Below the pieces are notes generated by a model. The model had not been told where the DNA came from, ran no database searches, and worked only from the letters and a program-made list of their open reading frames with translations. From NCBI GenBank assembly GCA_012517435.1, contig JAAYUY010000028.1:1-51739 (forward strand): a stretch of DNA of 51,739 nucleotides, written 5' to 3'. Position numbers and translations under genes: made by a program. Origin of the DNA: Sphingobacteriales bacterium. GTDB taxonomy: Bacteria; Bacteroidota; Bacteroidia; CAILMK01; JAAYUY01. Below, piece by piece: positions 418 through 37,967 of this stretch; within the stretch, counting starts at the first letter, position 1; every line of letters begins with the position of its first letter.

Positions 418-425
418 TATCTTTG
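418..425 (+). promoter_or_regulatory. Bacteroidota -7 promoter element (TATCTTTG)
   Basis: An exact TAnnTTTG match lies 18 bases before the ATG at 444 of the repeat-protein gene. It also argues against the TTG at 423 as a start, because that codon lies inside the promoter element. Confidence 0.65.
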
Positions 426-443
426 CATATCAAAAACTATCAG

Positions 444-3400
444 ATGAAAAAAATCAGTTTCGTTATTTTTTTATTGGGCATTGTCTTTTCATTGCAGGCA
501 CAGAATATCACACTCACTTCAAAAAACGCTAAATTCCGCTTAGGGTTTAACATAGGAAACCTTTACCAATGCAGCGATGTTGAACGATTACCTGGATTTG
601 GATATGGCCTTACCCTTGAACGCATATTAAAACCCGGGAGTGATGATTTTTTCAGCTTTTCGCTGAGAGCACGTTACCTTCATGGAATATCAAAAGGACT
701 TGACTATCAGTCATTTAGCGGCATACAGAACAATGTTGCACTGAATGGCACACGAAATACATTAATTAATTATGCCTCTTCTCCGGGATATGTTTACAAC
801 AATTACCGGACAAAAATTACTGATTTTTCAGGTGAATTAATGTTGTATTTCAATCAGTTGTGGTTAAAAACGCATATACTGCTTTATGGATGGGGAGGAT
901 TCAGCCTTGCTTCGTATGAAGCTACCATCAATGCAGTTGATGGTTTTGGAAATATGTACGACTATTCGTCCGTCATGCCCGGAACAAAAGATTTCGTCAG
1001 GGATCAACTGAAAAGCATGCTGGATAAAAAATACGAATCTTATGGCGACAATTTAGCAGGACCTGAACTGCTTTTTGGCCCTTCTGCAGGCATAGGGCTC
1101 GGGGTTCAGCTTACCAGACGAATTGCAGTTGGAATCGAACATAAAGTTACCTGGACCAATACAGACCTGCTGGATGGGCAGCAGTGGGATAAAAACAATA
1201 TTCGCTCAACGGATGATGACATTTACCACTATACCGTTTTGGGATTGAAATTTTTATTAGGAGGAAGTGATGAAACCAAAAAGAAAGACAAAACAAAACC
1301 CCAAACAGAAGATCCGCGCAGGCCACAGATTTTCATAACAGAACCTCAGCAAAATCCATATCTGAGCCCCGATTGCAAAACCTATATAACAGGAAGTGTA
1401 ACCAACCTCACCTCTGCCCAGCAACTGGTTATCAAAGAAAACAATGTGGTTCTCCCGCCAACGGCTTATTTTTTCAGACCTGAAACAGGTACTTTTAAAA
1501 TAGAAAAGACTATTACACAAAACAGTGAATACCAGATTATTGCCACAAACCAATATGGTAGTGCCATCAAGTTTCAGCACATCCACTGCACACCTAAAAT
1601 TAATAAACCCATCATAACCATTGAAAAACCGCAGGCCAATCCGTTTCAGACAAACAACTGCTTTGCTGAAATAATTGCTCACATCGAAAACATAAAAGGG
1701 AAAGAAAACATCACCGTTACAGAAAATAATGCTCCCCTGCTGGCAGCTGAATACACTTTCAACACCTATAACCGTTTGATTATCAATAAGAATATTAAAG
1801 ATCGCTCGGTTTTTGTCATCACCGCAAGAAACGAGGCAGGAACTACTTCTGCTGAAGTAGTCATTGATTGCCGAAAACCTTCCAATAAACCAGAAGTTAA
1901 AATCACTCTTCCTTCAGTAAGCCCTTTTATTACAAGCGATTGTAAAGCAGACATCAGGGCACTCGCCACCGGAATTACAAACAAATCTCAAATCAGCATC
2001 ACAGAAAACGGGAATTTATTGTCATCTTCCTTTTTCACCTTTGATCCGGTCAGTGGTTTGATAAAGATAAATAAAAACATCAGTGGATCAAGTACCTTCG
2101 TCATTAAGGTTCAGAATGAAAACGGCTCTGCTTCAGCCAGCACGATTATTCAATGCAAACAACTCCCCAAAACTCCTTTCGTTGAAATAACCAATCCCTC
2201 AGTCAATCCTTTTACCACAGAGGATTGCAGGGCAAACATCACGGCAACTATACAGAACATAGAGAATATCAATCAGATAAGCGTTTTTGAAGGATCAAAT
2301 CAATTGTCTTCAACTTACTACACCTACGACAGTTATGCCAAAATTCTGAAAATCAACAAGTTACTCTCCGGAAGTGCTGTCATAAAAATTGTCGTCAGAA
2401 ATGAAGCCGGGAGTGCAGAAGATGCCGTTGAAATCAAATGTTTAAAAGCACTTCCGCCATTACCAAAAGTAACGATTACCGAACCAAAGGCAAATCCTTT
2501 TGTTACAAGTAATTGTAATATAATTGTTTATGCTCTGGTAGAAAACATTAAAGGCTCTGAGCAATTAACCGTAACTGAAAACGGTTTCAGTCTGAATACT
2601 TCTTTCTGGAAATATAACCATGCCAACGGCATTGTCAGTATCAGTAAAGAAATCAGTGGAACTTCGGTATTTGAAATAACCGCAAGAAATGAAGCAGGAA
2701 ATTCAAAAGCCTCTGCAACGATAAATTGCGACAAAAAATCACTTCAACCATGCATCACCATTGTCAGTCCGCAGCAAAACCCGTATCAAACCACAGATTG
2801 CAAGGTAAGCGTTCGTGCCAATACCACAAATGTTACCAATAAATCGCAGATTATGATAAAAGAAAACGGTGTTGTAATTCCTTCCACTTCCTATTCTTTT
2901 GACAATTCAGGAGTTATCACCATGACAAAAGACTTCAGCGGGAAAAGCAACATTGAAATAAAGGTTACAACAGCCAATGGAACTGCCTCGGCCTCTCTGG
3001 TGGTCGAATGCCTGCCCAAAGCTTTACCTCCGGTGGTTACCCTGGTCGAACCAAATGTAAGTCCTTATCTGTCAGCTGATTGTATTGCAAAAGTAAAATT
3101 CAGTGTTAAAAATATTGAGAACAAAAACCAACTTGTACTAAAAGAAAATGGTAGCATTGTCCCATCATCCTCATGGTTTTATGATGCAGCCGAAAATATG
3201 GTTAGTTATACCAAAAACATTACAGGAGAAAGCAACTTTGAACTGACCGCCACCACAACGGCAGGAACTTCATCGGCAAAAGCAACCATCAGATGCCAGC
3301 GACAGGAACAAAAGCTCCCGAAAATTGTGATCACCTTTCCGGTTCAGAATCCATTCAAAACAAGTGAATGCAATGTTCAGGTAAAAGCATTGGCCACGAA

Positions 3401-5597
3401 TGTAACTTTAAAAAATCAGATAACGATAAAAGACAACGGAACCATACTGACATCTGAAGCCTTTTCTTTTGATCCGGCCAGCGGAATTATCAGCTTCACC
3501 AGAAATGTCAGTACCAAAAGTATAGTTGAAATAAAAGTCAATACGCCATCGGGCAGCGCAGTTGCTTCTCTGGTAATTGAATGTACGCCCAAACCAGAGC
3601 TTCCGGTCATTACCATCACACAACCTACCACCAATCCATACACCAGTCCTGACTGTAATACCGGGCTTAAAGCCACTATCAGGCATATTAACACCAAATC
3701 TCAGATTTCGGTTAAGGAAAGCGGCAGCCTGTTACCGGAAAATCTCTGGAGTTTTGACCCGTCAAGCGGATTGCTTAGTTTAAACAAATCAGTTGTGGGA
3801 GAGCAGTTATACGAAATTACAGCCACCAACCAGGCAGGTACATCAACGGCAAAAATAACCATTAAATGCCAACCTAAAATTCTTCCGCCTACTGTGGTGA
3901 TAAGCAGTCCTGCCATCAGCCCCTATGTAACAACAGATTGTAAAGCCACAGTAATAGCCAAAACCACCAATATCAGTCAAAAAAGTCAGATTAACATTAA
4001 GGAAAACGGAGTAACGATCCAGTCAGACCTGTTCACATTCGATCCTGTCAAACAGCAGGTAACTTTAACCAAAAACTTTGCAGGTACAGCCGTTTATGAA
4101 ATATTTGTTACGAATGAAAGCGGAACTTCTTCAGCCAAAACCACCTTTCAATGCCAGATACCTAAAAAACCACCTACAGTAAAAATTGTACAGCCCACGC
4201 AAAATCCTTTCATGACAAGCGAATGCAATGCAATAATACAGGCCACCGTAACAAATATCGAAAACAAATCGCAAATTACTGTTAAAGAAGGAAATACGCT
4301 GCTTACACAAAATGACTTTGAGTTCGATATTGCCACAAAAACTATCAGGGTTAAAAGGAATGTCAAAGGAACGGTAAATTTTGAAATCACAGTCAGTAAT
4401 CAGGATGGCTCAGCAACTGCCAGACAAACAATTACCTGTATTGAGCCGGTATTGCCACCGGTTGTAACCATCACCCAGCCTGCACTGAACCCATATAATA
4501 CTTACGACTGTAAGGCTGATATCAGGGCAAATGTTAAAAATGTTACCGACAAAAACAATATTTCCATTTTTGCAGGCAATCAGAAGCTTACCGCCTCCGA
4601 ATTTAATTTTGATGCAGCAACAGGGAATATCAGTTTTATTAAAGCATTGCCTCAAAGCAGTACAATTAAAATTACTGCAACCAACAGTGCAGGGACATCC
4701 GGTGCAGAAGTTACCATCAATTGCCTGCAGAAAGCTGATCCTCCGGAAGTGGTCATTATTACCCCTTCATCCGACCCGTATTTATCTGCACAATGCAATG
4801 CTTACGTAATCGCTAAAACAAAAAAAATCACGTCTAAGAACCAGATTACCATTTACAAAAACGGCTCTGTTCTGGATGGAATGTATTACAATTTTAATGA
4901 AGAAGAAGGTGAAATCATGTTTGACCAGGGTCTGAGCGGAGAAACCACTTTCCGTATAGTCGTTAAAAATGAAGGCGGCAGTGCAGAAGACAAGGTAACA
5001 ATCAAATGTCCTCCACCTGTAAAAACTCCTGACATAAAAATTCTGTCACCGGCCTCGAATCCTGCACAAATCAGCACCTGCAGAGCTGTTCTTCAGGCAA
5101 AAATCCTTGATTTTGGAGATGACGGGAAACTTGACGTCAGGGAAAACGGAAAAATATTACCTGCCTCCAACTATCAGTTTGATAAAGCTACCGGATTGCT
5201 GAACATCACCCGTGAATTTGTAGAAAAAACCACTTTCACCATCAATGTTTCAAACAAAGCTGGAAGTAAATCTGAGAGCATTTCATTTGTCTGTTCCGGT
5301 GGTGAAAAACTTCCGTTGGTTACAATAACAACACCCGTTGAGAATCCATATTATTCCGCTGATTGCAGTCTATATCTGACAGCTGATGTAATCAATGTTC
5401 AGGATGCAGACGGCCTGACGGTTCAGGTCAATGGGAAAGAACTTGAAAATAGCCAGTACACCTTTAATGCAGATAGCGGGAAACTGGTCGTCAACACCCG
5501 AAACCTGCCGGCAAAAGCAAAAATTACCCTTACTGCCAGAAATGAATACGGTACAACCGTCCGGTCGCTTGAGGTGAACTGCAAACCGGGATATTGA
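444..5597 (+). CDS. Giant outer-membrane protein with 15 Cys-paired Ig-like repeats
   Basis: The protein has about 1717 residues from the ATG at 444. A signal peptide (MKKISFVIFLLG...LQAQ) is followed by about 250 residues of alternating, aromatic- and glycine-rich sequence, consistent with a small outer-membrane beta-barrel (for example GPSAGIGLGVQLTRR). A charged Lys-rich linker leads into 15 successive repeats of about 95 residues filling the rest. Each repeat has an opening 'P.V.I..P..NP(Y/F)', then a Cys in a (D/N/E)C pair, 'NI..K.QI.(V/I).ENG', 'F.FD..(S/T)G.I' and a closing 'N..GSA.A...I.C'. The two Cys per repeat suggest one disulfide each in an Ig-like beta-sandwich. The chain ends KPGY just after the last repeat, with no T9SS sorting domain. 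It is probably a barrel-anchored stalk or adhesin; the function is unknown. A longer TTG-started reading from 423 is less likely because that codon is in the promoter. Confidence 0.8.
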   Translation: MKKISFVIFLLGIVFSLQAQNITLTSKNAKFRLGFNIGNLYQCSDVERLPGFGYGLTLERILKPGSDDFFSFSLRARYLHGISKGLDYQSFSGIQNNVALNGTRNTLINYASSPGYVYNNYRTKITDFSGELMLYFNQLWLKTHILLYGWGGFSLASYEATINAVDGFGNMYDYSSVMPGTKDFVRDQLKSMLDKKYESYGDNLAGPELLFGPSAGIGLGVQLTRRIAVGIEHKVTWTNTDLLDGQQWDKNNIRSTDDDIYHYTVLGLKFLLGGSDETKKKDKTKPQTEDPRRPQIFITEPQQNPYLSPDCKTYITGSVTNLTSAQQLVIKENNVVLPPTAYFFRPETGTFKIEKTITQNSEYQIIATNQYGSAIKFQHIHCTPKINKPIITIEKPQANPFQTNNCFAEIIAHIENIKGKENITVTENNAPLLAAEYTFNTYNRLIINKNIKDRSVFVITARNEAGTTSAEVVIDCRKPSNKPEVKITLPSVSPFITSDCKADIRALATGITNKSQISITENGNLLSSSFFTFDPVSGLIKINKNISGSSTFVIKVQNENGSASASTIIQCKQLPKTPFVEITNPSVNPFTTEDCRANITATIQNIENINQISVFEGSNQLSSTYYTYDSYAKILKINKLLSGSAVIKIVVRNEAGSAEDAVEIKCLKALPPLPKVTITEPKANPFVTSNCNIIVYALVENIKGSEQLTVTENGFSLNTSFWKYNHANGIVSISKEISGTSVFEITARNEAGNSKASATINCDKKSLQPCITIVSPQQNPYQTTDCKVSVRANTTNVTNKSQIMIKENGVVIPSTSYSFDNSGVITMTKDFSGKSNIEIKVTTANGTASASLVVECLPKALPPVVTLVEPNVSPYLSADCIAKVKFSVKNIENKNQLVLKENGSIVPSSSWFYDAAENMVSYTKNITGESNFELTATTTAGTSSAKATIRCQRQEQKLPKIVITFPVQNPFKTSECNVQVKALATNVTLKNQITIKDNGTILTSEAFSFDPASGIISFTRNVSTKSIVEIKVNTPSGSAVASLVIECTPKPELPVITITQPTTNPYTSPDCNTGLKATIRHINTKSQISVKESGSLLPENLWSFDPSSGLLSLNKSVVGEQLYEITATNQAGTSTAKITIKCQPKILPPTVVISSPAISPYVTTDCKATVIAKTTNISQKSQINIKENGVTIQSDLFTFDPVKQQVTLTKNFAGTAVYEIFVTNESGTSSAKTTFQCQIPKKPPTVKIVQPTQNPFMTSECNAIIQATVTNIENKSQITVKEGNTLLTQNDFEFDIATKTIRVKRNVKGTVNFEITVSNQDGSATARQTITCIEPVLPPVVTITQPALNPYNTYDCKADIRANVKNVTDKNNISIFAGNQKLTASEFNFDAATGNISFIKALPQSSTIKITATNSAGTSGAEVTINCLQKADPPEVVIITPSSDPYLSAQCNAYVIAKTKKITSKNQITIYKNGSVLDGMYYNFNEEEGEIMFDQGLSGETTFRIVVKNEGGSAEDKVTIKCPPPVKTPDIKILSPASNPAQISTCRAVLQAKILDFGDDGKLDVRENGKILPASNYQFDKATGLLNITREFVEKTTFTINVSNKAGSKSESISFVCSGGEKLPLVTITTPVENPYYSADCSLYLTADVINVQDADGLTVQVNGKELENSQYTFNADSGKLVVNTRNLPAKAKITLTARNEYGTTVRSLEVNCKPGY

Positions 5598-29452: not shown

Positions 29453-30583
29453 ATGCTGAAAATATATTTTTGGATTATCACCGGTTGGTTTATCCTTCTG
29501 TTTCTATTCATTATATTCAGGAAAAGAAAAGTCAGAAAATTATTGCTTTATTTGGTTCTTATCAGTTTTTCCCTGATTCTGCTCGAAGCTTTGTCGCTGA
29601 TTGCGTTAAAAATCAATACCGGATACTGGCTTTTCACAGAATTGCACAACCCCAATGCTGAATTATTCAAGCCCAATCCATATATGGTCAGCGAGCCGAT
29701 TCCTGGTGCCTGCCTGCATATCAGGGGGATCACCTATACTCATAATTCATTGGGATTCAGAAATAAGGAATTCAAAAAGGGCAAAAATAAATTCCGGATA
29801 ATTGCCATTGGGGGCTCCACAACATACGGGACAGGAGTCAGCGATCATCAGACATGGCCATATTACCTCGACAGCTTACTGGAACCAAAAGCTGAAGTAC
29901 TGAATTTCGGAGTGTCAGGTCATTCCACTGTTGAACATCTTGCCCAATCTTTTCTGATAGTACCGGATTATCATCCGGATGCAGTAATTCTTCTTTGCGG
30001 TTTAAACGACCTCAGAAACTGTTTCATAAAAAATGTACGGAGCGATTATACCGATTTTCACCCCTATAATCTTGAAGCGGTACTTGGGTTTCACCAGTTC
30101 AACAAATTGCCACGCTTTGCTCTTATTCGGGTCAGCATTCTTTTGTTACAAAAGATTGGTTATTACCCCTATTTCAATTTTCAAAAAGTCCATATTGAAG
30201 AGGAACATAGCATTGCAAATGATCAATATATGCTTGGACTTTATCGCAGGAACCTCTGTTCACTGGTCAATCAGCTTAAGTTTATTGGTGCAGAAATTGT
30301 TTTAGTACCTCAGGTCTTACACCCGGAAGCAGTTAAGGGAGGGGGATTGAAATGGTGGATTCCATATGTAAAAGATAATGAATTGATTCCATTGCTCGAC
30401 AAATACAATGAAGTCGGAAAAGAAGTTGCCGACTCGATGAAGGTAATTTTTGCATCTGATGTATTGAATGCCGGCTGGAAAGCAACCGATTTTACCGACC
30501 CAAGCCATTTTACTCCTGAAGCTAATCTGAAATTTGCAGGAATTCTGGAAAACTGCATCAGGAAAAACATTTTACCTAATTAA
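29453..30583 (+). CDS. Membrane-anchored SGNH/GDSL-family hydrolase
   Basis: About 376 residues from the ATG at 29453. Two N-terminal hydrophobic helices (about 4-22 and 30-52) precede a domain with the SGNH signature blocks: IIAIGGSTTYGTG (block I, Ser near 122), NFGVSGHSTVEH (block II Gly), LLCGLNDLRN (block III Asn) and DPSHFTPEAN (block V Asp/His near 349). These proteins cleave or transfer acyl or other ester groups on lipids, glycans or peptidoglycan. The membrane anchor suggests envelope substrates. It is followed after 7 bases by the 846-aa barrel protein, so the two are probably co-transcribed. The exact substrate is unknown. Confidence 0.8.
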   Translation: MLKIYFWIITGWFILLFLFIIFRKRKVRKLLLYLVLISFSLILLEALSLIALKINTGYWLFTELHNPNAELFKPNPYMVSEPIPGACLHIRGITYTHNSLGFRNKEFKKGKNKFRIIAIGGSTTYGTGVSDHQTWPYYLDSLLEPKAEVLNFGVSGHSTVEHLAQSFLIVPDYHPDAVILLCGLNDLRNCFIKNVRSDYTDFHPYNLEAVLGFHQFNKLPRFALIRVSILLLQKIGYYPYFNFQKVHIEEEHSIANDQYMLGLYRRNLCSLVNQLKFIGAEIVLVPQVLHPEAVKGGGLKWWIPYVKDNELIPLLDKYNEVGKEVADSMKVIFASDVLNAGWKATDFTDPSHFTPEANLKFAGILENCIRKNILPN

Positions 30584-30590
30584 TTGACAA

Positions 30591-33131
30591 ATGAAAAAAG
30601 CAATAATTTTACTGTTTTTCAGTGCTATTACATTTTTAGTTTCTTCCCAAAGCCCAGACATCAGCATACGAACCACAGGAAAAATATGCGGAGAAATTCT
30701 GGAAGCTGAATTTATCAATGCAGGAACAACAGAATTATACATCAGTATTCAGCCCTTTTATTTACCGGATTTGCCGGGCGGACAGGCAGTTATTGTCCCG
30801 TACGGATTATCCTTCAACCTTCAGCCTTCAGAGCGAAAGCTGATTAACCTTAATGGTTTTACAGTTTTTTCCGACAGACCCTTTCCTGAAAAAGGCCTGC
30901 AGTTTACCCGACAGGATATTGAAAAATACAGGCTCACAGATAAAACTGACTTTAATGATTCAATAAGCCTTTACGGGAATTATATCCCTGAAAAATTTAC
31001 AGGTTCACGGCTAATCTCCCTTGATTTTATTCCGACCAAACCCGGCACTTTTGAACTTTTAGGCTATAAAATTGATTTACAACATCAACCCACTATTGCT
31101 TCCAGATTTTTGTTATCTCAGGCAAAGATGCTGGCAGATGGCTATGAGAAGCTTTTTACAGCCGGAAAAGTCATTACTCATTTCAACAATGACCCTCGTC
31201 TGGAAAAGAATATAATGATACAGGCAGCTCTATGGATCTGTTCTGCCGGACTCGAAGGCAAAGCATTGAAAAACAAAATTTTATCAAAACTCTTCAGGGA
31301 TATGTACATTGCTGTTTTACATCAGAAGCCTGAAGATGATTTTCTGAAACACACCGATAGTTATTTACGCCTTCTCGACCGGATGGGAAAAGAGGGAAAA
31401 GTGTTTATACGACCCGAAGACCTCGACCGTAAGCCACAGTGCCTTCCTGCTGTAGTTGGGCTGAGTGCTATCAGCGACAATGTCAGAACGCCAACCTTCA
31501 GCAAGGTCAGGTTTGCTGAATATACAGTGAGGAATCAGGCGATGCTCGGCCCAAAAAATGATTGTCTGCCTTGCATTTTACGTGAAGATATGAAACCCGC
31601 CTTAAGAAATTACCTGTATCAGACCGAAATCACAAAAGCATACGGAAATTTTACCTTTTTACGTAATTTGCTCGATTCGGTAGCTTTACCCGTTTTTGTT
31701 GCCCAGCCGCTTTCTTATCTCGATGGAATGAAAAATTTTGAACCCCGCCTCTGGGTTGCCGGAAGTGATAAAGAGCTAAATGAAACCCTGTTGCTGATGT
31801 ATGAAAACATGGCCTATTACCTCCAAAATATTACCAGATTTACTGATATTCAGGAACTTAAACCTGTATATAGTTTTGTATCTGCCTATCAGACGGAATA
31901 CATTAACTTGTTTAAATTCATATCGGATGTCTTCCGTTTCAGGGAAAGCCGGTATTCATTCGACTGTTGTGAGCTGACAAAAATGCCTGATGTTTCTTAC
32001 CTGCAACTCAGTCAAAAGCTGGAAGAATTTTTTAAAAAGTATCATAAGGATTTAAGCATAGAACTGCCACAATATGTTCCGCTTGTGTTTGATTCTCAGT
32101 TTTTTAACGACTTCATCATTAAGGGAATCGTTTTGTATAGCGAAAAGGCATTATTAAGTTTTTATAAAATGCTGGCCTCAGATAAGCAGATGATTTGCCT
32201 TGAAAGTCCTTTTCCGACAGAAAGATATTCCGCCCTTGAAAGAATCAATGCATTTCTGGGAACGAATCTGTCGGATATTGGTTCCTTTGCTTATGGCAGA
32301 CTACAGGTAAATCTTGATGAGAATACCGCATTGGAGTTTCGTTTTGGCGAATGCAACTGCGGAAAAAAACGTGAAAGCATGTTGCCTTTTCCGGTCATCG
32401 AACCGGAGAGTACTGCCTTACTGACAGAGCGACTGAAGCAGGTCAATCTTCAAACCAGGTATGAGATTTCAGCTCATGCCGGCAGGGCTTATTTTTCTTC
32501 AGACGGAGCTTCTGCTTTTGACGGAGGTGGATTGGACGGATTCAGCAACATACCTCAGCTTGCCGATTCATTTATCAAAATCCGTTATGGTGAAAAATAC
32601 TGGTTTTCTTCCCCCGACTCTTTCCGTTTTGACTGGTTTTCAGTTTACAGCCTTTCAGCAGGCTATGATCTCAATAAAAACCTGCAAGTGCGCATTTCGG
32701 GTTTCAAATCCAATGGCCTGGCACAGGCGAAAGCCGGATTTCACTACCTCTCCAACCCACTGGATAGTAATTCGGAAAAAGTCGTCAGTTCAGCTATTTT
32801 TACAAAAGTAAATGAATGGTCGGTCGGAGCTGGAGCCAGATATTATTCCGGGAATTATACCCGTATTTTTGGCGGAATTCAGCTTGCATACCACAGTTTT
32901 TCAGGCAATATAGCCAAAGATTACCTCGAAGAGCTTGAGATTGAAATGAAAAAAACAAATGGATTTTCCTGCTTTTCAGCCGGTATTGAAGCAGGTGCTC
33001 GTTATTACTTTAACCAGGATTTTTTTATTGAAGCTGCTGGCTTGCTGTCGAAACGTTTTGTTCAGAAAAGTTTTGCAGGAAGCGGAGGTTTTGATAAACA
33101 ACTACTCATTGGTGCCGGAGCAAGATTTTAA
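30591..33131 (+). CDS. Unknown exported protein with C-terminal outer-membrane barrel
   Basis: An 846-residue protein with a signal peptide (MKKAIILLFFSAITFLVSSQ). The first 600 residues match no family I recognise. They start with a beta-rich 110 residues (PFYLPDLPGGQAVIVPYG), then a mostly helical region with Cys pairs (NDCLPCILRED near 325, FDCCELTKMP near 465, GECNCGKKRE near 590). From about 690 the chain alternates aromatic and polar residues in barrel fashion (LSAGYDLNKNLQVRISGF, WSVGAGARYYSGNYTRIFGGIQLAY, AGARYYFNQDFFIEAAG) and ends in Phe (IGAGARF), as an outer-membrane beta-barrel does. It may scaffold or export something at the outer membrane, with its helical part in the periplasm. 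Gene neighbours suggest a link with the SGNH hydrolase just upstream. Confidence 0.65.
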   Translation: MKKAIILLFFSAITFLVSSQSPDISIRTTGKICGEILEAEFINAGTTELYISIQPFYLPDLPGGQAVIVPYGLSFNLQPSERKLINLNGFTVFSDRPFPEKGLQFTRQDIEKYRLTDKTDFNDSISLYGNYIPEKFTGSRLISLDFIPTKPGTFELLGYKIDLQHQPTIASRFLLSQAKMLADGYEKLFTAGKVITHFNNDPRLEKNIMIQAALWICSAGLEGKALKNKILSKLFRDMYIAVLHQKPEDDFLKHTDSYLRLLDRMGKEGKVFIRPEDLDRKPQCLPAVVGLSAISDNVRTPTFSKVRFAEYTVRNQAMLGPKNDCLPCILREDMKPALRNYLYQTEITKAYGNFTFLRNLLDSVALPVFVAQPLSYLDGMKNFEPRLWVAGSDKELNETLLLMYENMAYYLQNITRFTDIQELKPVYSFVSAYQTEYINLFKFISDVFRFRESRYSFDCCELTKMPDVSYLQLSQKLEEFFKKYHKDLSIELPQYVPLVFDSQFFNDFIIKGIVLYSEKALLSFYKMLASDKQMICLESPFPTERYSALERINAFLGTNLSDIGSFAYGRLQVNLDENTALEFRFGECNCGKKRESMLPFPVIEPESTALLTERLKQVNLQTRYEISAHAGRAYFSSDGASAFDGGGLDGFSNIPQLADSFIKIRYGEKYWFSSPDSFRFDWFSVYSLSAGYDLNKNLQVRISGFKSNGLAQAKAGFHYLSNPLDSNSEKVVSSAIFTKVNEWSVGAGARYYSGNYTRIFGGIQLAYHSFSGNIAKDYLEELEIEMKKTNGFSCFSAGIEAGARYYFNQDFFIEAAGLLSKRFVQKSFAGSGGFDKQLLIGAGARF

Positions 33132-33213
33132 CAGTCGCTTAAGTCTCCGATCACTCATTCATTAAGATTTCGGCAAAACAGGACAAAAGCTCTGTATTCT
33201 CAATGAAAAACCT

Positions 33214-33221
33214 TAACTTTG
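33214..33221 (+). promoter_or_regulatory. -7 promoter element of the chorismatase-like gene (TAACTTTG)
   Basis: An exact TAnnTTTG match 22 bases before the ATG at 33244, in a 112-base spacer. It suggests that the next two genes can be transcribed separately from the two upstream. Confidence 0.6.
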
Positions 33222-33243
33222 ATGAGCTTACTAATGCCTCATT

Positions 33244-34395
33244 ATGCAAAGATTTATATCCACAAAGGTTACTTCTTTTGATGACTACGAACTTATTTGG
33301 ATCAAAGTTGACCTTTCGGAATTCAATGACCTTGCATTGGCAGAAAGTATCTATTCAGGCTGCATTCAGAACCTGCATGAAAAAAACAGCTACATCCTTT
33401 CTGAAAAAGTGTTTGGGACAGAATCAATAATGTCCCTTTTATCTGAAATCAAGAAAAAATATATTGATAATCAGCTGATTAATCCTTATCCGACCAGTTA
33501 TATTTATTCAAAACGGGGAGTAAGATTTGACAACTCCTGCTGTTCAATCGTTGCAATTCGGTCGTTATCCGGTTCGGTGAGTCTGAAATATATAAATGAT
33601 AAAAAATCAGGAAAAATTGAAGGAACATACCTTAAGACAAAAGATACGGAGCGTTTGTACCTGACATCTTCAAATAAACGAGAATCAGGCACAGGCTTTA
33701 CTGCTTCATTTTACAATCTGACTAAGGCAGCTTCTGAATTTGGTTTTAAAGAGAAAGACCTGATTCGCACCTGGTTTTATCTTGATAAAATCGGTTTTAA
33801 TTACACAGAATTTAATCAAAACCGAAACCAATGTTATCAGGCACTTGGAATCGATTTATCCGCACAGTCGGATCATTTACCTTCGAGCACCTGTGTTGGT
33901 AAAAACGGGATAGAAGATAGCCTGAATGTGGAAGCGTGGTTTATTAAACGTAATAATGAAAACATCAGGATTTCAAGGATTTTTAATCCCTTTCAGAAAG
34001 AACCTGATGGAAAAAATTATATGTTTCAGCCTGCTTTTTCACGTGCCATACTGATAGAAACCCACGACTACAGGGAACTTCAGTTATCCGGAACAGCCAG
34101 CATCGGGATAAACGGAGAAACCTTATTCCCGGGTGATACGGCCATGCAGATTAAAACCACTTTCGAGAATGTATCAGCCATTCTTCATCAGTCAAAAATG
34201 GATTTTCAGGATTTTTGCCTTGCATATTGTTATCTGAAAAACCCTGAAGATGCTGAAATTTTCCATCGTATCATCAGGGAACTCAAGATTAACGCCCCTA
34301 ACAGTTTATTGATTTTTAATGATATATGCAGACCAGATCTGACATTTGAAATAGATGGTATAGCTATTAAAAAAATCAGGAATGATGAAAAATAA
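33244..34395 (+). CDS. Rid-superfamily protein resembling FkbO/Hyg5-type chorismatases
   Basis: A 383-residue protein, apparently cytoplasmic, with no signal. The C-terminal half has a clear Rid (YjgF) fold pattern: LQLSGTASIGINGETLFPGD, TTFENVSAILHQ and LLIFNDICRPDLTFEIDGIAI. Before it, LIRTWFYL, NQNRNQCYQALG and LPSSTCVG line up with RTWNY, the N..R segment and PAATGIG of chorismatases such as FkbO, as I remember them. The conserved Arg (IRTW) and the C-terminal Glu (EIDG) of the chorismatase site are present. A position usually Arg appears as Lys (YLKNPED). Chorismatases turn chorismate into hydroxybenzoate or dihydroxy-cyclohexadiene acids. Substrate and activity here are inferred. Its last bases overlap the next gene. 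Confidence 0.6.
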   Translation: MQRFISTKVTSFDDYELIWIKVDLSEFNDLALAESIYSGCIQNLHEKNSYILSEKVFGTESIMSLLSEIKKKYIDNQLINPYPTSYIYSKRGVRFDNSCCSIVAIRSLSGSVSLKYINDKKSGKIEGTYLKTKDTERLYLTSSNKRESGTGFTASFYNLTKAASEFGFKEKDLIRTWFYLDKIGFNYTEFNQNRNQCYQALGIDLSAQSDHLPSSTCVGKNGIEDSLNVEAWFIKRNNENIRISRIFNPFQKEPDGKNYMFQPAFSRAILIETHDYRELQLSGTASIGINGETLFPGDTAMQIKTTFENVSAILHQSKMDFQDFCLAYCYLKNPEDAEIFHRIIRELKINAPNSLLIFNDICRPDLTFEIDGIAIKKIRNDEK

Positions 34396-36790
34396 ACATT
34401 TACACTTTGGATGCTTGCTGAGCCTTTTTGTAACACTATGGCTGATGCAGGCCTGTCAGTCGAATGATGCAGAAAAGATATTTAATTCATGGCAGGAACA
34501 TCCTGTTTATGCCTATCTCAAAATCATCTATCCTTTCGACAGCAGTTTATTCCCTTCAGATTTTGCCTGTCCCGGGTTCATCTGGGAGGAAGATAGTGCA
34601 AAGTCAGTTTCGTGGATCATTTCATTTTATGACAAGAACCAACACTATTGTTTTTCATCCGGGACAAAAAAATGGAAACCTGAAAGGGGTTTCTGGGAAA
34701 GGATAAAAAAAGAATTCAAGGGTAAATATTTGAAAATCTGCATAATAGGAGTAGATGATAAAAAAAATATCACTTCAGCGGCTCAGATTAACATTGGCAT
34801 TTCTCCTGACCCTGTCGGAGCTCCGGTATTTTACCGCGACATACCTTTACCTTTTGCCTTTGCAAGAGCTCATGTGGATTCAATAAAATGGAGATTACAG
34901 GATGTCAGCTCTGATGAACTGGCACCTGTGGTGATGGAAAACCTGCCTGTTTGTGCCAATTGCCATTCCTTTTCCCCAAATGGCAAATATTTCGGGATGG
35001 ATGTGGATGCCCTGGGAATTAAATCGGCTTATATTACTGCTGATGTCAAAGAGGAAATTGATTTTTCCCCTGAAAAATTCAATTATTGGAGCGACTTTCA
35101 GAATGGAGAATTTACTTACGGGCTTCTTTCTCAGGTTTCACCAGACGGACGTTTTGTCGTCAGCACCCTGAAAGACCACGAAATATTTGTCCCCAAACCA
35201 GATCTGTATTATTCCAACTTTTTCTTTCCCATCAGGGGTATATTGGTGGTGTATGATCGTCAAACGAAAAAATATTGGGCACTTCCCGGTGCAGACAATC
35301 CTGATTTTATTCAGAGCAATCCTTCCTGGTCGCCCGATGGAAAATACATTTATTTCACACGGGGAACTGCTGTGTCACCTGAAGAATCAGGCATTCTGAG
35401 GGGAACTGCCATTGCTGATTCGGTTAAATTCAATGATTTCCTCAACAGATGTTTTGAATATAAGCGTCTGGTGGTGTTCGATCTGTATAAAATTCCCTTT
35501 AATGAAGGCAAAGGTGGGAAAGCAGAGCCTGTCAAAGGTGCTTCAGAAAATGGAATGAGTAATTATTTCGCTAAGGTTTCTCCTGATGGTAAATGGTTGA
35601 TTTTCAACAAAGCAAAAAGTTTTATGCTCCTGCAACCCGACAGCCGTTTATACATTATGCCGGTTGAAGGTGGCTGGGTACGTGAACTGGAATGCAACAC
35701 CAATCAGATGAATTCATGGCATTCGTGGTCGCCTGACGGGAAATGGATCGTATTTTCTTCCAAAGTACTCGGGCCTTATACCCGTTTGTTTCTTTCCCAT
35801 ATTGACGAAAACGGACATGCCAGTAAGCCTGTGATGATTGAAAATCTTGTTCCTGACAAGCGGGCTGTCAATATACCGGAATTTGTCAACATACCCCCGG
35901 GTCAGAAGATGAAAATGAATGACAAGTTTTCAAAAGAAGGGGATTACAATCTGATTGTCAGGGCTTATTGGCTCAGGCTCAGGGGCGACTATGACGCTTC
36001 GCTTCAAACACTTAATTTCGCCATGAAAAAAACGCCATCCGACCCTGAGATTTTTTATCAGCGAGGACTCACCTATATCAAACTGAACCGCCTCGAAGAA
36101 GCCTTAAAAGACCTTGACAGCTCAATTGTGCTGAATCCTGAAAATGCCTCTGCATGGGGCGAAAGAGGACATGTCAGACTTATGATGAAAGATTTTAAGG
36201 CAGCAGTGAAAGATTTGGAAAAATCAGTTGCTATTTATCAGAAATCACCTCAGGCCTATTACAATCTCGCCTATGCACACAGCAAACTCGGAAATAAAAA
36301 CGCTGCCATCCGGTATTATACAAATGCCCTCAGCCTGAACCCGGGATACATTGAAGCCCTGATGAACAGGGGGGTTGAAAGGATTGAAATAAAAGACTAT
36401 CAGGGAGCCATTGCTGATTTTTCAGCGTATATCAGGCTAAAGCCGGATGATCCGCTCATTTATGTCTTACGTGCCAATGCCTATGATGAAAGTGGAAATT
36501 ACAGTCAGGCTCTTACTGATTATGATAAAGCCATCAGCCTGAAAAGAAATTTTCTCCCTGCTTACCTCAACAAAGCCATCGCCCATTACAGGCAAAACGA
36601 TTTTAATCAGGCATGGAACAATATTATTCAGGCCTGGCAACTAGGCAGTCAACATCCTGAAGTGTTGTACTGGAAAGGTATGATTAGCATAGCTATGGGT
36701 AAAAAGACGGAAGGATATAACGACCTGAAAGCTTCAGCTGCCAAAGGTTTTCAGCCTGCCAGAGCCGAAGTCGAAAAATATTCAAGATAA
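34382..36790 (+). CDS. Lipoprotein with CxxCH motif, TolB-like propeller and TPRs
   Basis: An 802-residue protein whose start overlaps the end of the chorismatase-like gene by 14 bases. A second in-frame ATG at 34385 is possible. The N-terminal signal ends in a lipobox (LMQAC), so it is a lipoprotein, probably in the outer membrane. About residues 30-180 form a beta-rich domain; near 190 lies LPVCANCHSFSPNGKYF with a CxxCH haem-c type motif. TolB/PD40-like propeller blades follow (PDGRFVVST, SWSPDGKYIYFT, VSPDGKWLIF, SWSPDGKWIVFS), up to about 510. Residues 520-800 hold about eight TPRs (YQRGLTYIKLNRLEEALKDL...). The propeller-plus-CxxCH-plus-TPR layout is found in Bacteroidota proteins of unknown function. 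Only one CxxCH is seen; haem attachment is not proven. Confidence 0.75.
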   Translation: MMKNKHLHFGCLLSLFVTLWLMQACQSNDAEKIFNSWQEHPVYAYLKIIYPFDSSLFPSDFACPGFIWEEDSAKSVSWIISFYDKNQHYCFSSGTKKWKPERGFWERIKKEFKGKYLKICIIGVDDKKNITSAAQINIGISPDPVGAPVFYRDIPLPFAFARAHVDSIKWRLQDVSSDELAPVVMENLPVCANCHSFSPNGKYFGMDVDALGIKSAYITADVKEEIDFSPEKFNYWSDFQNGEFTYGLLSQVSPDGRFVVSTLKDHEIFVPKPDLYYSNFFFPIRGILVVYDRQTKKYWALPGADNPDFIQSNPSWSPDGKYIYFTRGTAVSPEESGILRGTAIADSVKFNDFLNRCFEYKRLVVFDLYKIPFNEGKGGKAEPVKGASENGMSNYFAKVSPDGKWLIFNKAKSFMLLQPDSRLYIMPVEGGWVRELECNTNQMNSWHSWSPDGKWIVFSSKVLGPYTRLFLSHIDENGHASKPVMIENLVPDKRAVNIPEFVNIPPGQKMKMNDKFSKEGDYNLIVRAYWLRLRGDYDASLQTLNFAMKKTPSDPEIFYQRGLTYIKLNRLEEALKDLDSSIVLNPENASAWGERGHVRLMMKDFKAAVKDLEKSVAIYQKSPQAYYNLAYAHSKLGNKNAAIRYYTNALSLNPGYIEALMNRGVERIEIKDYQGAIADFSAYIRLKPDDPLIYVLRANAYDESGNYSQALTDYDKAISLKRNFLPAYLNKAIAHYRQNDFNQAWNNIIQAWQLGSQHPEVLYWKGMISIAMGKKTEGYNDLKASAAKGFQPARAEVEKYSR

Positions 36791-36866: not shown

Positions 36867-37967
36867 TTAAGAATTATTGATTATTCGTCCTTTAATTCTT
36901 TTGTCAGCCAACCACATAATTATCCAATACACAGGCATTACAAAAGGATATAAAATGATTGCCAGAAAATAATAGCCATGATAATTCGAGGCTGCATCAC
37001 CAATAATCAGGTCAATGATATTGAATGAGAACATGTAAATCAACAAAACTATAAACGGAAGAATAATACTGCCGGTAATGACAATCCTTGAATGTTTTTT
37101 TGCCGGCTCTTTTCTCCTGTATTTTTTAATACCAATGAGATGAAGAAAAGCAGTCAGCACAAAGAAAATGAGCGCCATTCCAATTGGTCTGACAGCAATC
37201 ATTGCCTTTGCAAAACCATTAATTCCGGGCTTGTAAATAACTTCAAAAAAGTCTGCAGGTAGTTCTGAAAAATTCCAGACAGAAATACCATCATTCTGCC
37301 CTTTGTTTGGCTTTCCGAGATTTGTTGTCAGCGGATAAGTAAAGTCCGATGCGTCTAAGGTTATTTCCAGATTGTCAAAAGATTTCCAATATTTTGCTGG
37401 TGAAAGAGAATAACGAAAGCTATATTCCTTAACCCAGTCCGACCTGTCTGTCCAGACATTTGCCATGTACTCAACCCTGATTTGATGTTCCCCCTTTGTC
37501 AGGTCAATCTCAAAGTATTTCAAATCATTCAGATAATAAATGGTCCCTGAATTTTCCTGCCAGAAAATTTCCACAGTTTCCCCCTCTTCATCCCTGGATG
37601 ATCGATTAAATGAATTTGAGAATTTTTCAAAAGGAGTATGCCTGATCGTCTTATATTCATAAGGTACATCAAGAACTTTAATCTCCCGGTTATCAACCCA
37701 GACGCTGAAATTGCCATTATAGTCCTTAGCGATAAATAGCATTGGAATTTGTTGGCCGGAAGTGTCAGTTCTGATGAGGTATTCTATCCTGTAAAATGCT
37801 GTCTTAAAGTCCTTATCAATTTTCAGGTAAATTTTTTCTTTGAGGATATCAATGTCATGGCTGGAGAAAGCAGAACCGGTTCGGGTTCCTTCCAAAACAG
37901 GGGATGCCATATTCGCCAAACATATTCGTCCGGAAAGAAATAAAATTATTGTCAGTATCTGCCTCAT
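36867..37967 (-). CDS. Unknown exported protein with C-terminal membrane helices
   Basis: A 366-residue protein with an N-terminal signal sequence (MRQILTIILFLSGRICLA), a beta-rich extracytoplasmic region (about 25-240) with many aromatic residues, then three hydrophobic stretches (about 243-266, 285-308 and 325-350). A short Arg/Lys linker (GIKKYRRKEPAKKHSR) between the first and second implies a cytoplasmic loop. I do not recognise the family. It resembles in layout proteins with a periplasmic sandwich domain held by C-terminal helices. It converges with the TPR lipoprotein gene, with a 76-base gap without a clear terminator hairpin. Confidence 0.55.
   Translation of the reverse strand: MRQILTIILFLSGRICLANMASPVLEGTRTGSAFSSHDIDILKEKIYLKIDKDFKTAFYRIEYLIRTDTSGQQIPMLFIAKDYNGNFSVWVDNREIKVLDVPYEYKTIRHTPFEKFSNSFNRSSRDEEGETVEIFWQENSGTIYYLNDLKYFEIDLTKGEHQIRVEYMANVWTDRSDWVKEYSFRYSLSPAKYWKSFDNLEITLDASDFTYPLTTNLGKPNKGQNDGISVWNFSELPADFFEVIYKPGINGFAKAMIAVRPIGMALIFFVLTAFLHLIGIKKYRRKEPAKKHSRIVITGSIILPFIVLLIYMFSFNIIDLIIGDAASNYHGYYFLAIILYPFVMPVYWIIMWLADKRIKGRIINNS

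Follow-up and report, generated by a model that had tools for sequence, protein, structure and literature searches.

A Chorismatase-Like Gene Paired with a Predicted c-Type Cytochrome in a Sphingobacteriales Bacterium, and Recurrence of the Linkage across Bacteroidota

A stretch of 51,739 nucleotides from a Sphingobacteriales bacterium (contig JAAYUY010000028.1, positions 1 to 51,739; hereafter the window) carries four consecutive genes, numbered here 1 to 4, that had been proposed to form a single undescribed envelope system. They are instead two unrelated modules. Genes 1 and 2 are an inherited, lineage-specific envelope pair. Genes 3 and 4 are an accessory two-gene unit with overlapping frames, which joins an enzyme, by its sequence a divergent relative of the FkbO/Hyg5-type chorismatases, to an exported lipoprotein that is a predicted c-type cytochrome. 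Linkage of this chorismatase-like family to c-type cytochromes recurs across Bacteroidota. The accessible parts of the open-access literature searched gave no description of a chorismatase link to cytochromes or iron in this phylum; prior work may have been missed. In the accessible part of a 2025 paper on Hyphomicrobium, the chorismatase XanB2 is noted as lacking there, with nothing more.

Two Modules in One Run of Genes

The run is laid out as first described, with all four open reading frames (ORFs) on the forward strand, genes 1 and 2 separated by 7 bp, and genes 3 and 4 overlapping by 14 bp. The pairs themselves are 112 bp apart, and this difference in spacing supports a split into two modules. 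The host's GTDB family has four genomes, each with a homologue of gene 2, whereas the 391 further genomes of the class have none; copies of gene 1, 45–51% identical, are found in all three relatives from that family. In two of these relatives (G001 and G002) gene 2 directly follows gene 1 and overlaps it by 1 bp. The third (G003) has them on separate contigs, and no sign of the partner is seen in the short stretches at the contig ends.

Gene 3 and a convincing gene 4 were found in none of the 11 other genomes searched of the 12-genome order, the family relatives included, and no genome apart from the host has all four genes together. Back-translation searches of genome contigs with genes 2 and 3 gave no match. 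Moreover, no relative of the SGNH gene or of gene 2 stands beside any of 50 other chorismatase-like loci. Genes 1 and 2 are retained in relatives that lack genes 3 and 4, and are therefore an inherited pair, with genes 3 and 4 either acquired together by the host or lost together from the other genomes. A conserved neighbourhood of all four genes was looked for in relatives and was not found, and what stands of the original prediction is its alternative of two independent halves.

Gene 3, a Divergent Chorismatase-Like Protein

Gene 3 (33244–34395, forward strand) encodes a protein with neither a signal nor a hydrophobic segment, which is predicted to be cytosolic. It had been described as a Rid-type chorismatase relative, and this is borne out by a match to PF01042, the Rid C-terminal domain (E 1.4e-9), together with a chorismatase-type N-terminal region and a weak match to TIGR04444 (E 2.8e-12). 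At 46.5 bits, the latter match is far under the 325-bit cut-off, above which no protein of the host genome scores. Taken as a single sequence, gene 3 matches the chorismatase chain of 5ag3. A 12-row alignment of gene 3 with distant relatives, in which 18 columns are invariant and every row matches TIGR04444, matches 5ag3, 5a3k, and 4bps at E values of 1.9e-32 to 9.5e-24. Single-sequence fold prediction was not usable (predicted local distance difference test, pLDDT, 36).

Sixteen residues are identical in 52 of 52 full-length relatives, including R175, W177, Y187, R194, T216, F265, R267, S282–A285, C362, R363, and E369. Those of the invariant residues that were traced on the printed alignment coincide with identities to Hyg5 (5ag3). 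In Hyg5, Glu334 is the catalytic acid that protonates chorismate, and three residues mark the CH-II group of chorismatases (PMC7170507). In Hyg5 numbering, these markers are Gly173, Gly240, and Cys327, which are Gly164, Gly231, and Cys318 of Nat-hyg5 shifted by 9. Counted along the 5ag3 row, Glu334 aligns with E369 of gene 3, which is invariant in 52/52, and the markers Gly240 and Cys327 align with G283 and C362. The equivalents of Cys327 and Glu334 both fall within the motif CRPDLTFEIDG, which runs from Cys362 to Gly372 (34327–34359, forward strand). The third marker position is Cys217 in gene 3. Because of this cysteine, the score under the cut-off, and the longest branch in the family tree, gene 3 is filed as chorismatase-like and not as a member of TIGR04444.

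Gene 4, a Predicted Lipoprotein Cytochrome

Gene 4 (34382–36790, forward strand) encodes an exported lipoprotein with features of a c-type cytochrome. One CxxCH motif, a propeller, and TPRs had been recognized in it, and all three were found again, as CANCH at residues 191–195 and as matches to PF07676 (PD40) and to TPR families. The two cysteines and the histidine of the motif are invariant in 12 of 12 homologues, the lipobox cysteine (Cys25) is kept in 10 of 12, and lipobox, CxxCH, and propeller residues together are conserved in 10–12 of the 12. Maturation of haem c would be possible in the host, whose genome encodes a Cytochrom_C_asm protein (G000:C202, E 6.2e-41).

The closest homologues of gene 4 among the fetched loci are in L137 (47.7% identity) and L128 (41.6%). 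Each is transcribed divergently from a neighbouring chorismatase-like gene that belongs to a clade other than that of gene 3, and this pairing of a gene-4 homologue with another clade of the enzyme family is an independent line of evidence for the linkage.

Neighbourhoods of Chorismatase-Like Genes in Bacteroidota

Full-length relatives of gene 3 are present in 46 of 295 genomes of one order (counted by hand), and others come from other orders and classes. The neighbourhoods were compared in a sample of 51 loci, namely the window and 50 fetched regions, which cover 33 GTDB families and in which all ORFs were clustered. Counts exclude L010–L012, which hold short, single-domain, RidA-only genes, and L050.

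Most of the neighbours that recur are related to haem or accompany haem genes, and three layouts are seen. Layout A (L020, L102, L108, L109, L116, and L120) contains outer-membrane porins, an imelysin, a di-haem oxidoreductase, and a lipoprotein with a CxxCH motif, together with the chorismatase-like gene and an assembly protein of the CcsBA type. In layout B, DUF6057 and a propeller lipoprotein that is a gene-4 homologue precede or follow the chorismatase-like gene; genes 3 and 4 of the window are a variant of it without DUF6057. In layout C, an IclR regulator and a propeller/MauG-like protein with two CxxCH motifs accompany the chorismatase-like gene, joined at some loci by an HZS-alpha protein with two CxxCH motifs and at some by an assembly protein. 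Among other close neighbours (n = 62), no family occurs in more than three members. A reading in terms of flexirubin or aryl-polyene synthesis was set aside, as genes for either pathway did not recur around the chorismatase-like loci.

Linkage to cytochrome genes is frequent. At 20 of 51 loci, which belong to 14 of the 33 GTDB families, a CxxCH gene directly adjoins the chorismatase-like gene; among 49 comparable loci, 18 have such a neighbour compared to 2.8 expected from genes farther away. When the cytochrome c assembly cluster is added, 28 of 51 loci have a linked gene within two genes (26 compared to 3.8 expected in 46 comparable loci). In an earlier count, CxxCH genes made up 12.2% of genes within three positions and 2.0% of those farther away. 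The linked loci are spread over deep clades of the chorismatase-like tree. A cytochrome c assembly protein is encoded by 45 of the 46 genomes with a full-length member (read off two lists by hand) compared to 193 of 249 without one (p 4e-4), although these genomes are related and are not independent samples, so that the p-values are too optimistic. Of the scenario in which a chorismate-derived aromatic is made in the cytosol and then handled at the envelope, the part that stands is that chorismatase-like genes recur beside c-type cytochrome genes; attachment or movement of the product by genes 1 and 2 is unsupported.

Several neighbouring genes deserve mention in their own right. DUF6057, a protein with multiple membrane spans that is not mentioned in the open-access literature searched, is encoded directly beside a CxxCH propeller lipoprotein in L018, L023, L118, L127, L138, and L139, sometimes twice per locus. 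Proteins with HZS_alpha (the hydrazine synthase alpha middle domain) and two CxxCH motifs lie beside or near the chorismatase-like gene in L022 (10772–14770) and L105 (2151–4655), with cluster-mates in L024 and L133; the L022 protein also has FGE-sulfatase and NPCBM domains. In L132 (7904–10933), the chorismatase-like gene is followed by PSCyt2/PSD1 and DUF1501 proteins, which were scanned in L132 and belong to clusters also present in L135. These families are best known from planctomycetes and are found here in Bacteroidota. In L017 (5777–9854), DAHP synthase, a 651-residue protein without a Pfam match, and the chorismatase-like gene form a tight run, a possible dedicated supply of chorismate; as this is one locus only, beside topoisomerase genes, it is a lone hint. 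Finally, the excluded locus L050 (G043:C2) has a chorismatase-like gene split over two frames with an internal stop, probably a decaying copy, and no cytochrome c assembly protein was detected in genome G043.

Proposed Function and Alternative Explanations

Taken as a whole, the enzyme–cytochrome module is probably explained by a cytosolic chorismatase-type enzyme that is functionally tied to exported c-type cytochromes. Judged from the aligned active-site residues, the most likely reaction of gene 3 is the cleavage of chorismate to pyruvate and a hydroxybenzoate, and the retained CH-II residues suggest that the route is probably the one to 3-hydroxybenzoate taken by Hyg5. The presence of a cytosolic enzyme within an exported-cytochrome unit points to a small molecule. 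In the proposed mechanism, gene 3 would convert chorismate in the cytosol, and the hydroxybenzoate, directly or after further steps, would reach the haem protein, either in the periplasm or on the cell surface, and act there as a small redox partner or a substrate. This last chemistry, in which the product meets the cytochrome, is proposed tentatively. It is conceivable, if doubtful, that divergent chorismatases throughout Bacteroidota make an aromatic compound as a dedicated redox partner, substrate, or cofactor precursor of exported cytochromes, of which genes 3 and 4 would be a minimal, mobile version.

Several observations, beyond the relatedness of the sampled genomes, weigh against a chorismatase serving the cytochromes. 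No cytochrome-related gene lies within three genes in 20–22 of the 51 loci, about 40%, and no further aromatic-chemistry genes recur beside the chorismatase-like genes. Relatives of gene 4 were gathered through chorismatase-like loci, and the counts cover their occurrence there and not elsewhere. Gene 3 itself is the most divergent of the 52 members, with the longest tree branch (3.7) and a best identity of 26–28%; its nearest neighbours in the tree are the members in L139 and L138. It has also lost conserved positions, with E266 changed to Ser, Q90 to Lys, and the equivalent of Gly173, kept as glycine in 51 of 52 members, to Cys. Owing to the long branch, the low identity, and these losses, gene 3 may be inactive.

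The same features lend weight to another explanation, in which gene 3, perhaps along with all of the Bacteroidota family, retains the fold but catalyses a different reaction or does no more than bind a small molecule; it could, for instance, act on another enolpyruvyl or imine compound or serve as a sensor for cytochrome expression. The score far under the TIGR04444 cut-off would fit such a change, as would the several known activities of Rid domains (PMC4433059). However, what has stayed invariant is the chorismatase set of residues, with the catalytic glutamate and the CH-II glycine and cysteine among them, and we regard a different activity as a minority possibility.

The main alternative purpose for the module is iron acquisition, in which a chorismate-derived aromatic would chelate or reduce ferric iron, surface cytochromes would pass electrons, and ferrous iron would enter the cell. 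This is suggested by FeoAB beside layout A in L020 and by the gene content that layout A shares with BT2473–BT2482 of Bacteroides thetaiotaomicron, namely an M75 imelysin, a thiol (di-haem) oxidoreductase, a porin, CcsA, and hypothetical proteins; according to the available part of the report, expression of that locus rises 63- to 324-fold on iron depletion (PMC10434189). A hemerythrin is also found in L109. However, the available part of the same report describes no chorismatase-like gene at BT2473–BT2482 (PMC10434189), so the comparison with layout A rests on the other genes, and the window differs further in having just the enzyme and the propeller cytochrome. No iron gene accompanies the window layout with its gene-4 type of protein, nor layouts B and C among the genes scanned. 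A role in iron uptake is considered unlikely.

It is improbable that the adjacency of chorismatase and cytochrome genes reflects chance or the shared inheritance of a few operons. In its favour, the sampled genomes share ancestry, layout A could be a single operon passed on by descent, and the loci without a cytochrome-related neighbour would be expected under this explanation. Against it, CxxCH genes are in roughly six-fold excess beside the gene compared to genes farther away, and the linked loci come from 14 families and two deep clades, with three different gene contents and in both orientations. Least probable is a single four-gene envelope system that makes, attaches, or oxidizes an aromatic acid, for which the shared direction and the tight spacing inside each pair would speak, against the failed synteny test, the occurrence of the four together in the host only, the 3/3 family relatives that keep genes 1 and 2 without genes 3 and 4, and the 50 other chorismatase-like loci with neither of genes 1 and 2 beside them. 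The split into two modules and the functional link between enzyme and cytochrome are, taken jointly, held with good confidence.

Genes 1 and 2 and Other Features of the Window

Gene 1 (ORF from 29426, first ATG at 29453, to 30583, forward strand) encodes an SGNH/GDSL hydrolase with N-terminal membrane segments. Its earlier assignment to the ester hydrolases is upheld by PF13472 (E 2.5e-13), with PF13472 and PF00657 both above their cut-offs, and its translation contains GGST and DPSHFTPEA (DxxH) blocks. In the ORF as started at TTG, hydrophobic segments occur around residues 6 and 35.

Gene 2 (30591–33131, forward strand) encodes an exported, lineage-specific protein of 846 residues. An outer-membrane barrel had been proposed for it, and only a signal-peptide-like start and a C-terminal phenylalanine agree with this; no match was found in Pfam, NCBIfam, or the PDB (the last searched with a 4-row profile), and single-sequence fold prediction was not usable (pLDDT 33).

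Between the modules, an internal promoter had been placed at 33214–33221. The sequence TAACTTTG does exist there on the forward strand, 22 bp upstream of the gene 3 ATG, and from its sequence it is a possible Bacteroidota -7 promoter element for genes 3 and 4. However, TANNTTTG occurs 53 times in the window compared to 58 expected, that is, at chance frequency, and since the motif is not enriched, TAACTTTG is suggestive only.

The window also carries T9SS sorting domains, GldE, and NQR genes, as a Bacteroidota contig. A 1724-residue ORF without a Pfam match (423–5597, forward strand) adjoins a T9SS plug protein gene, and a 366-residue membrane protein without a Pfam or NCBIfam match (36867–37967, reverse strand) is convergent with gene 4.

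Relation to Known Systems and Significance

Genes 3 and 4 represent a known kind of enzyme in an unexplained setting. Like the FkbO/Hyg5 chorismatases (TIGR04444; 4bps, 5a3k, and 5ag3), gene 3 is a two-domain protein with a Rid-like C-terminal domain, and it has invariant active-site residues with the catalytic glutamate, as well as the equivalents of Gly240 and Cys327 found in the 3-hydroxybenzoate-forming CH-II group. Unlike them, it scores far under the family cut-off, has diverged over a long branch, has a cysteine in place of Gly173, and lies beside exported cytochromes instead of in a polyketide or peptide cluster. XanB2, the 3-/4-hydroxybenzoate synthase of Xanthomonas, belongs to the same chorismatase superfamily and is likened here by description, not by sequence. 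According to the available parts of papers that cite the work, it supplies aromatic acids for pigments and for ubiquinone (cited in PMC7170507 and PMC12423496); in contrast, neither aryl-polyene nor ubiquinone genes recur near the chorismatase-like loci. Gene 4, in turn, belongs to the PD40/TolB-like propeller lipoproteins with one CxxCH motif, and differs from the others in its long C-terminal TPR array and its pairing with a chorismatase-like gene.

Even without a mechanism, the census of neighbourhoods offers a hint, through guilt by association, about DUF6057 and about the haem propeller lipoproteins. The link is also directly testable in tractable Bacteroidales through single-gene deletion. 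If it is real, the Rid/chorismatase-like family would gain a function connected with electron transfer or iron, and this in a dominant phylum of guts and soils. It would also mean that chorismatases are used outside secondary metabolites and ubiquinone, and that chorismate is drawn off beyond menaquinone, folate, amino acids, and secondary metabolites.

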